Origin: a bacterium
GTDB lineage: Bacteria; Vulcanimicrobiota; Vulcanimicrobiia; Vulcanimicrobiales; Vulcanimicrobiaceae
DNA length: 64,000 nucleotides
Reading direction: 5' to 3'
Assembly: GCA_021790935.1 (NCBI GenBank)
Contig: JAJYFL010000006.1
Span: forward strand, 1-64,000
Under the pieces are notes generated by a model that searched no databases, was not told the origin of the DNA, and saw nothing but the letters and a program-made list of their open reading frames with translations. The position numbers and the translations under genes are program-made. Below are positions 41,651 to 60,981 of this stretch, in pieces. How positions within the stretch are numbered: the first letter of the stretch is position 1; every line of letters begins with the position of its first letter.

Positions 41651-41717
41651 CCACCCGACGTACCGATCTTGTCACCCTGAGCCTGTCGAAGGGTGACATA
41701 ATCGGTACGTCGGGTGG
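41651..41717. repeat. Nested palindrome with a widespread REP-like core
   Basis: CCACCCGACGTACCGAT at 41651-41667 is perfectly complementary to 41701-41717, and inside it GTCACCC (41671-41677) pairs with GGGTGAC (41691-41697). The core reads GTCACCCTGAGCCTGTCGAA, a word seen between genes in many unrelated bacterial genomes. It could act as a terminator or mRNA-stabilising hairpin between dnaK and grpE. Confidence 0.8.
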
Positions 41718-58528: not shown

Positions 58529-58662
58529 CCAATTTCGCCGGATTGGCTGGTTTCACCCCTACTTTGGTCCGCTTCACAACGCATGCGGATTGCTAAGATG
58601 AACGTGGATTGGAGTGCCGAACGATGCGCGCAGTGCATCGTCGTCGCAGTAAGGAGCGGACA

Positions 58663-60108
58663 TTGGCTGAACAACAGGTTGACGCGGTCGTCATCGGCGC
58701 CGGACCCGGCGGATACCATGCGGCGATTCGTCTGGGACAACTCGGCAAGAGCGTCATCTGCGTCGACCGCGACGAGGTCGGCGGCGTATGCCTCAATTGG
58801 GGCTGCATCCCGACGAAGGCGCTGCTCCACGTCGGCGAAATCGCACGGCAGATCTCGCATGCCGGCGCGCTCGGCCTCAAGGTCGCAGGCCTGCAAATCG
58901 ACCGGGCAGGCGTCGCCGCGTTCAAGGCCGGCGTCGTCGAAGCGAATGTCGGCGGCGTCAAGATGCTCTTCAAAGCCAATAACGTGCAGTTCGTGTACGG
59001 CGAAGCGTCCTTCAAGAGCGCGACCGAGATCCTCGTCAAGAAACGCGGCGGCGGCGAGACGACGATCGCCGCGCAGTACGTCGCGATCGCAACGGGATCG
59101 GCTCCGGTCGACGTGAAGGCGTGGCCGCGCGACGGAGAGGTGATTTTGAACTCCGACGATGCGGTTCAGATGAAGCGCATCCCCAAGAATCTCCTCGTTA
59201 TCGGCGGCGGCGTCATCGGCCTCGAGTTCGCGACCGCGTACACGCGTCTGGGCGCGAAGACGCTGGTGATCGAGGCGCTGCCTGCGATCCTTACCGGCAT
59301 CGACGCCGAGATCGGCAAGACGCTCGGACGCATCCTCAAGAAGCAGGGCGTGGAGATCCTGCTCGATACCAAGGTCGGCACCGTCGACAAGAGCGGTAAG
59401 ACCGCGAAGGTCACCTTCAACGGTGCCGGTACCGGCGGTAAGGACGAGACGCGCGAGTTCGATATGGTGCTCGTCGCGGTCGGGCGGCGCCCGGTAACCG
59501 ATGGGCTGAATCTCGCCGCCGCGGGTCTCTCTACGAACGAGAAAGGCTTCATCGACGTCGATGCGCAGCGGCGCACGAAGGTCGCCAACATATTCGCGAT
59601 CGGCGACGTAACGGGCGCTCCGATGCTCGCTCACAAAGGCATGAAAGAAGGCGTCGTCGCGGCAGAGGTGATCGGCGGCAACGGATCCGCCGCCTTCGAC
59701 CCGATTGCGATTCCGAACTGCGTCTACACCGACCCGGAAGTTGCGACCGTGGGCCTATCCGAAGAAGAGGCACGAGCGCAAGGGCACGAGCTGCGCATCG
59801 GCAAGTTCCCACTTGCCGCGAGCGGCCGCGCGCGCACGATGAACGAGACCGACGGTATGATCAAACTCGTCGGTGACGCAAAGACCGATCTTTTGCTCGG
59901 CATGCACGTCGTAGCACCGCAGGCGGAATCGCTCATCGGCGAAGGCGTGATCGCACTCGAGATGGGCGCAACGCTCGAAGACATCGGCCTCTCGATCCAC
60001 CCGCACCCAACCCTGACGGAAGGCATCATGGACGCGGCCGAAGCCGCGCATGGCAAAGCGATCCACATCGTAAACGCAAAGCCCAAAGCCCCGCCCCCGA
60101 CACGTTAG
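58663..60108 (+). CDS. lpdA: Dihydrolipoyl dehydrogenase (E3)
   Basis: Lpd reoxidises dihydrolipoyl groups of 2-oxoacid dehydrogenases and the glycine-cleavage system. The 481-residue flavoprotein has the FAD motif VVIGAGPGGYHAAIRLGQLG, the redox-active disulfide in GGVCLNWGCIPTKALLH, a second dinucleotide fold (LLVIGGGVIGLEFATAYTRL), FAIGDVTGAPMLAHKGMKEG and the C-terminal His-Glu pair in HPHPTLTEGIMDAAEAAHGK. TTG 58663 is the start, with AAGGAG at 58651-58656 six bases upstream; an in-frame ATG at 58609 lacks a site. lipB and lipA follow, so this is a lipoate-metabolism cluster. Confidence 0.97.
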   Translation: MAEQQVDAVVIGAGPGGYHAAIRLGQLGKSVICVDRDEVGGVCLNWGCIPTKALLHVGEIARQISHAGALGLKVAGLQIDRAGVAAFKAGVVEANVGGVKMLFKANNVQFVYGEASFKSATEILVKKRGGGETTIAAQYVAIATGSAPVDVKAWPRDGEVILNSDDAVQMKRIPKNLLVIGGGVIGLEFATAYTRLGAKTLVIEALPAILTGIDAEIGKTLGRILKKQGVEILLDTKVGTVDKSGKTAKVTFNGAGTGGKDETREFDMVLVAVGRRPVTDGLNLAAAGLSTNEKGFIDVDAQRRTKVANIFAIGDVTGAPMLAHKGMKEGVVAAEVIGGNGSAAFDPIAIPNCVYTDPEVATVGLSEEEARAQGHELRIGKFPLAASGRARTMNETDGMIKLVGDAKTDLLLGMHVVAPQAESLIGEGVIALEMGATLEDIGLSIHPHPTLTEGIMDAAEAAHGKAIHIVNAKPKAPPPTR

Positions 60109-60122
60109 CACGTATCATGACT

Positions 60123-60276
60123 CTATCGGTTGGGCGGCAGGTTCCCCTATGCGCGGGGCTCTGAGAATCGCCCGGAGCCAGGATGGCGGAAGGGCGATTT
60201 CAGGCAGTAGCCTTTTCCCACGGATGGGAAAAGGCGGGCGTCCCGCGCATCGGGGAACCTGCCGCCCAACCGATAG
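60123..60276. repeat. 154-nt nested inverted-repeat element
   Basis: The outer arms are 60123-60147 and 60252-60276, 25 bases and perfectly complementary. The stem continues after one mismatch with ATGCGCGGG (60149-60157) against CCCGCGCAT (60242-60250), about 35 bp in all. Inside are two further hairpins: AATCGCCC (60166-60173) with GGGCGATT (60192-60199), and GCCTTTTCCCA (60210-60220) with TGGGAAAAGGC (60225-60235) around a CGGA loop. Together this gives a multi-branch fold. No coding capacity is visible. It could be a MITE-like element, a structured RNA, or a 5' leader structure of lipB, which starts 24 bases later. No target-site duplication is evident. Confidence 0.85.
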
Positions 60277-60300: not shown

Positions 60301-60981
60301 ATGACAATGAATGAAACGAAACGGTCCCGGTTGTTGGATCTAGGATTGCGCCCATACCGCGAGGTGTGGGACCTACAGCGTGCCATCCACGAACGCGTTT
60401 CGCGCGGTGAGGACCCCGATACGTGGATCTTCGTCGAACACGCGCCGGTGATAACGCTCGGCCGCAAGGCGAACCGCGGGAACGTCTTGGCATCGCCGGA
60501 ACTCTTGGCCGCGCGCGGCGTGGATCTCGTCGAGATCGAACGTGGCGGCGATGTGACCTACCACGGCCCGGGGCAGATCGTCGTCTATCCGATCCTCAAA
60601 CTCGCGCGGTTTCGGGAGGTCGTTCCGCTGGTGCGCGCGCTCGAAGGCGCGGCGATCGGCGCCTGCGCGTCGTTCGGCGTTACGGCCGAGCGCTGGAGCG
60701 AGCACGCCGGCGTGTGGGTTGGCCGCGATCAGATCTGCGCGATCGGCTTAGCCGTGAAAAAGATGACGACGCTGCACGGGATCGCGCTGAACGCGTGTAC
60801 GTCCCTGGATTACGACAGGCTCATCACTCCGTGTGGCCTGGCCGAGCGCGGGATCACGAGTCTGACGCGCGAAACCGGAAGAACCGTGAGCGTGCGCGAA
60901 GCGAAGGCGGCTCTGCTCGCTTCGCTCTCCACCACATTCAACGTACGATTCGAGCCGCTCGCAGAGGTTGCGTGCGCGTGA
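60301..60981 (+). CDS. lipB: Octanoyl-[ACP]:protein N-octanoyltransferase LipB
   Basis: LipB moves an octanoyl group from ACP to lipoyl domains. The 226-residue product has RGGDVTYHGPGQIVVYPILK, the catalytic Lys region AIGLAVKKMTTLHGIALN and the acyl-enzyme Cys in LITPCGLAERGITSL. The start ATG 60301 follows the structured element closely; MNETKRSR two codons later is also possible. Its stop overlaps the lipA start (GTGA), so octanoylation and sulfur insertion are made together. Confidence 0.96.
   Translation: MTMNETKRSRLLDLGLRPYREVWDLQRAIHERVSRGEDPDTWIFVEHAPVITLGRKANRGNVLASPELLAARGVDLVEIERGGDVTYHGPGQIVVYPILKLARFREVVPLVRALEGAAIGACASFGVTAERWSEHAGVWVGRDQICAIGLAVKKMTTLHGIALNACTSLDYDRLITPCGLAERGITSLTRETGRTVSVREAKAALLASLSTTFNVRFEPLAEVACA

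Follow-up and report, generated by a model that had tools for sequence, protein, structure and literature searches.

A folded element between lpdA and lipB

The window, that is, the whole 64-kb stretch of DNA analysed, carries a 154-nt folded element in the gap between lpdA and lipB (60123-60276). The stop codon of lpdA (60106-60108) lies 14 nt ahead of it. An earlier note, made from the sequence alone, had described an inverted repeat in this gap, 24 nt before lipB; both its structure and its position were confirmed, and NCBIfam matches bear out the identities of the two flanking genes. The features of the locus are as follows.

58609..60108 (ORF extent as listed), + strand: lpdA, dihydrolipoyl dehydrogenase (NCBIfam)
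60123..60157, + strand: 5' arm of the outer stem, pairing kept but letters locus-specific
60151..60249, + strand: match to covariance model R1 (111 bits), comprising the core and the 7 bp of the outer stem nearest to it
60158..60205, + strand: helix P2, with swaps between GC and CG across copies
60177..60187, + strand: apical hairpin of P2, GCCA-GGA-UGGC, with the GGA loop in nearly all copies
60210..60235, + strand: helix P3, the hairpin GCCTTTTCCCA-CGGA-TGGGAAAAGGC, with AGTA before and GGGCGTCCC after
60242..60276, + strand: 3' arm of the outer stem
60301..60981, + strand: lipB, lipoyl(octanoyl) transferase (NCBIfam), starting 24 nt past the element

The two 35-nt arms are 97% complementary at a spacing of 84 nt and form the strongest inverted repeat of the window. 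No mismatch interrupts their outermost 25 pairs (CTATCGGTTGGGCGGCAGGTTCCCC with its complement), and a single T.C mismatch lies deeper in the stem. The inner hairpins of the note are present as well, one with an 8-bp stem (AATCGCCC/GGGCGATT, 60166-60173 pairing with 60192-60199), the other with 11 bp (GCCTTTTCCCA/TGGGAAAAGGC, 60210-60220 pairing with 60225-60235). P2 begins with covarying pairs of 60158-60159 with 60204-60205, continues with a bulged U, and then pairs CUGAGA-A-UCGCCC with GGGCGAUUUCAG. The RNA fold of the 174 nt around the element reaches -124.9 kcal/mol (z = -12.1). Dinucleotide shuffles, 200 in all, are far less stable, averaging -69.35 (sd 4.58), and none of them equalled the native fold. 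The note had found no resemblance to a known RNA, and an Rfam search of the whole window agrees: there was no match at the gathering score, and a permissive threshold brought up only generic hairpins, mostly of miRNA type, far under the cut-off.

A further hairpin of the window, at 41651-41717, has 28 bp (93% complementary) and an 11-nt loop, lies about 7 nt past a stop codon, and resembles CTTCGACAAGCTCAGGGTGACA-type palindromes of other loci.

Copies and distribution

A nucleotide search of the window's own genome (G000) revealed three further copies: two follow nuoK and atpG, respectively, and the third, at C33:337.6 kb, is split by an insert of about 210 bp. The covariance model yields nine matches in this genome at E-values up to 0.1, and these fall into two subfamilies. 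The second subfamily has another core in an equal layout, CTGTGACCGACGAGCGAAGCCAGGATGGCGAGAGC...GGAGCGCAGCCAGGATGGCGGAGC on long locus-specific arms; its copies (L200 and L202-L205) lie at C10:180572, 192249 and 192388, C9:241609 and C15:21832, two of them in tandem. Across the window's family, nucleotide searches detected copies in 25 of 99 genomes. With the covariance model, which was trained on the copies of one family and gives rough E-values, copies were found in 77 of 149 Eremiobacterota genomes from three families, with up to 18 per genome; because the model was built from one family, those in distant families are probably undercounted. Since most assemblies are metagenome bins, many of them fragmented, a copy or gene missing from any one of them is weak evidence.

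Searching 84,980 species genomes with a pattern of the core gave matches on 19 contigs. Those whose titles name a phylum are all from Eremiobacterota/Eremiobacteria, and the remainder belong to three bins titled "bacterium" that match G050, G051 and G066 of the window's family. Searches of collections of viruses, phages and plasmids yielded no match, and a source of these kinds was rejected; the literature searched describes no such repeat for Eremiobacterota. As far as tested, this is a non-coding dispersed repeat family confined to Eremiobacterota, and apparently one that has so far gone undescribed.

Several observations concern individual copies or other repeats. Divergent pairs of copies, their members a few hundred bases apart, occur at L024, L040, L041, L042, L046 and L048, and the short ORF between the L041 pair looks PemK/MazF-like by eye. 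In L015 (G066:C70:98-192), which lies where a contig ends, the arms pair at 88 of 90 positions; this may be a fold-back made by the assembly. A different hairpin element, in which 23 bp of stem enclose some 80 nt of loop and the ends are like TAGGAGGCTGTCGGAGTTAAGC, is found in G000 at C33:264773-264898 and C22:71028-71155; judged by eye, the insert that splits the copy at C33:337.6 kb (L004/L010) is similar to it. The left flank of L002 and many places in G050 and G051 carry an abundant dispersed repeat, CGCATCCGCGCTGCGCGC...GGCAAAGCCGCCGGGG. Finally, a perfect 50-bp palindrome with 25-bp arms and no loop (G000 C22:67948-67997) sits between convergent genes, 11-12 nt from both stops.

A conserved core that covaries

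At the centre of each copy is a core of about 84 nt, a three-way junction with two capped hairpins. At the base of P2, two pairs alternate between GC and CG ahead of the bulged U, and the tip of the helix is the hairpin whose loop reads GGA; the 11-bp hairpin P3 has a loop of NGGA, GGA or CGA. An alignment of 61 copies leads to a consensus structure of 33 pairs, for which 94.4% of cells are paired. Double changes at paired cells number 413, as against 127 +/- 8 after shuffling and 47-86 when partners were slid. The core is conserved and covaries strongly.

Position relative to genes

By our gene calls, which used a simple codon model of our own, the median distance to the nearest stop codon is 15 nt, and 70 of 94 copies lie within 30 nt of one. 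Only 1 of 91 copies is located between divergent genes, against an expectation of 16-20% taken from a single 370-kb contig of G000. In unidirectional contexts, it is preferentially the 3' arm that adjoins the stop (46 vs 23). The neighbours, of which lpdA, lipB and nuoK were identified by family search and the others by eye from their protein sequences, include atpG/atpD, nuoF/nuoG, infB/rbfA, nusG/rplK, tuf/rpsJ, guaA/purD and nuoK.

This distribution bears on the proposal that the element is a leader controlling lipoate genes. A cis-regulatory leader or riboswitch of lipB would fit the short distance between the element and the lipB start. However, the roughly 100 copies stand beside mostly unrelated genes (atpG, nuoK, infB, tuf, nusG and guaA among them) and favour 3' over 5' ends, and at lpdA-lipB itself the copy has the opposite orientation in other genera and has lost its 5' half in G050. 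A lipoate-specific element is refuted by the distribution of the copies, and we consider a role as lipB leader hardly credible.

Strand preference of the fold

In the outer stems of 100 copies, read on the core strand, G.U pairs outnumber A.C pairs by 164 to 45, counts that include related copies, so that the sites are not independent. The excess recurs in every gene context, with G.U to A.C ratios of 81:28 where the core strand is antisense ("--"), 36:7 where genes run along it and 36:9 between convergent genes, which argues that the fold of the core strand is favoured, either as RNA or as single-stranded DNA. Plain folding of mRNA fails to explain this, since in the 46 "--" cases the operon mRNA is the other strand. 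Overall, the folded strand is antisense to the adjoining operon in about half of the copies. The suggestion of a structured non-coding RNA is supported, as far as structure goes, by the strong covariation and the strand-specific tolerance of G.U, but with so many antisense copies a role as RNA is only a candidate one.

The same antisense placement speaks against an element that binds CsrA, either titrating or recruiting it. Nearly every copy has GGA in its P2 loop, the hairpins with CAGGAUG-type loops may resemble CsrB repeats, and CsrA is encoded in G000 and in 50 of 61 family genomes. The P3 loop, on the other hand, is often CGA, G024 has nine copies and no CsrA match (in an assembly that is 93% complete), and G010, G023 and G052 have CsrA but no copies. 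CsrA and the repeat do not consistently occur together, and we judge this explanation very improbable.

Arms that change but stay paired

The outer stem measures 30-37 bp across copies. Conservation is highest in the centre of the element and lowest in the arms, whose letters vary by locus while their pairing persists. In G054, however, the arms are alike between copies at different loci, as if the whole unit had moved, and in G000 those of the lipB and nuoK copies can be aligned by eye. Judged from these likenesses, the arms probably share an origin and change fast, and are probably not unrelated sequences.

Orthologous copies illustrate how the arms change. In 13 orthologous pairs of copies, 27 pair positions are altered on both sides with pairing retained, 15 by transition-type and 12 by transversion-type changes, and single changes lead to or from G.U in 22 cases, A.C in 6 and other mismatches in 9; these counts stop at the first gap, and as some pairs share a genome, not all are independent. 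L071 and L180 have matched indels in both arms, so that each stem remains ungapped, while their flanks are 90-95% and their cores 99% identical; L037 and L050 show matched arm indels as well. Templated copying of one arm from the other would readily yield the pattern of L071 and L180, which independent compensation rarely would.

History at individual sites

Sites that differ between related genomes are informative about movement. The nuoK site of G051 is free of the element and of any arm remnant; no target-site duplication is recognizable there, and insertion and precise deletion look alike at this site. Among the congeners of G064, G066 has no element at guaA-purD and G065 none at the L188 site. 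Partial forms occur too: at atpG, G050 retains no more than a short hairpin with the core missing, and in G066 the L014 site has a long hairpin without core. The atpG-atpD and nuoK-nuoL junctions, like lpdA-lipB, have copies in opposite orientations in different genera. Taken together, the empty nuoK site, the opposite orientations and the half-deleted lipB copy suggest an element that is, or once was, mobile. Movement would be rare or past, because many sites are common to congeners.

The origin of the arms can be considered in the same light. That they are an inverted duplication derived from the target was rejected, since both arms are missing from the empty nuoK site and the G054 arms are alike. 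The same two observations weigh against the idea that the core is a separate insertion into the apex of pre-existing terminator hairpins, with the arms as host sequence, even though arms that differ per locus and abut stop codons, and long core-less hairpins at two orthologous sites, are what such insertions would leave. Long hairpins are moreover rare (8 with a score of at least 16 in 455 kb, known elements included), which disfavours long terminators as general hosts of the core, and the core-less forms fit deletion between short direct repeats (CCGCC; GGGCGTC). We regard apex insertion as improbable.

As to the means of movement, no mobilizing gene was found in a transposase search that covered Y1_Tnp (PF01797) only. 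RAYT/Y1 transposase (PF01797) is encoded in only 4 of the 99 family genomes, and in none of the copy-rich G054, G056, G064 and G066; given its absence from nearly all carriers, it was rejected as the mobilizer. The PF01797 matches of G000 are short or broken, one partial (C14:20243-20470) and one split in two (C11:165349-165566).

A model for spread and maintenance

On balance, we lean towards a model in which the repeat spread in trans as a REP/MITE-like non-autonomous element and was then kept as a hairpin, partly by arm-to-arm copying. Movement is suggested by the polymorphism of the sites. A putative enzyme acting in trans would move the element; it would recognize the core strand by its fold, much as REP and IS200/IS605-type elements are recognized as hairpins, and would not depend on fixed sequences at the ends. 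After placement, one arm would be recopied from the other in a hairpin-templated process, by template switching at inverted repeats, and selection for the fold of the core strand may also help to keep the arms complementary. When transcribed along with the neighbouring genes, the long hairpin probably forms a 3'-end or intercistronic barrier, and it may be tolerated or even useful behind housekeeping genes. The full form of the mechanism is doubtful: a class of mobile palindrome recognized by fold and not by terminal sequence, whose inverted repeats keep only their pairing because one arm is copied anew from the other time and again, with a putative enzyme that acts on the single-stranded branched form.

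Strong maintenance in situ could equally mean a host function, and a serious rival is therefore a domesticated host RNA, whose transcript hairpin serves operon junctions or 3' ends as an mRNA stabilizer, RNase III site or transcription barrier, and for which mobility is ancient and irrelevant. The compensated changes in orthologous copies speak for it, as does the position just past the stops of the housekeeping genes atp, nuo, infB, tuf and nusG. Against it stand the tolerance of G.U by the core strand even when antisense to the operon, the losses in G050 of half of the lipB copy and of the core at atpG, and the core-less L014 site of G066. The window copy, inspected by eye on both strands, also lacks the T run that follows the hairpin of an intrinsic terminator. 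We consider a domesticated RNA possible, and clearly less probable than spread followed by upkeep of the hairpin.

The repeat adds a copy-rich family to a phylum of which few genomes have been studied, and in its orthologous copies the compensatory evolution of a whole stem is unusually clear. As the arms tend to outdiverge the core yet stay paired, it offers a natural test of whether selection on the fold or template switching keeps long palindromes perfect, and of whether conserved ends are needed for a repeat to spread.

Comparison with known repeats

REPINs (PMC3116915) and the Eremiobacterota repeat are alike as short non-autonomous repeats that form a long hairpin. In a REPIN, one REP is present twice in inverted order, whereas the Eremiobacterota repeat has two hairpins of the same orientation within one outer stem. 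Reports on inverted repeats homogenized by template switching (for example PMC8604942 and PMC7202029) describe arms made alike by templated copying; the cases there are mutation events at single loci, whereas here the process would act on a whole repeat family.

Of the readings in the earlier note, a MITE without a nearby transposase comes closest. As expected of one, the repeat has many dispersed copies, none of them with a transposase, but the letters of its ends vary, and conserved ends were the note's own mark of a mobile element and are a defining trait of MITEs. MITEs such as Correia/NEMIS, ERIC, YPAL and EFAR (PMC2229807) are non-coding intergenic elements of about 100-200 bp without a transposase of their own, and the Eremiobacterota repeat resembles them in these properties, in arms reminiscent of terminal inverted repeats and in its strong RNA fold. 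It also falls within the usual bounds of a MITE, being dispersed, 70-300 bp long and devoid of coding capacity. However, MITE copies have terminal repeats common to the family (PMC2229807), whereas the arms of the Eremiobacterota repeat differ by locus, save within G054.

REPs are 20-40 bp long with stems of 6-13 bp. For those tagged by GTAG or CGTC, Di Nocera et al. (2013; PMC3733652) describe positions between ORFs that are unidirectional or convergent, in most cases no more than 20 bp from a stop codon. As dispersed extragenic palindromes close behind stops, copies of the Eremiobacterota repeat have the same distribution (PMC3733652). Its core also carries an AG(T/C)AG + hairpin + GGGCGTC motif, with AGTAG (or AGCAG) before P3 and GGGCGTC after it, but this places the tag within the element, where some of it may be base-paired. 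The differences are its size of about 150 bp, its branched form and its outer stem of 30-37 bp; moreover, GTAG REPs are linked to RAYTs, which are missing from nearly all Eremiobacterota carriers. Since it departs from REPs in length and RAYT association, and from MITEs in the conservation of its termini, we assign it to neither group and regard it as a REP/MITE-like palindromic repeat outside both families.
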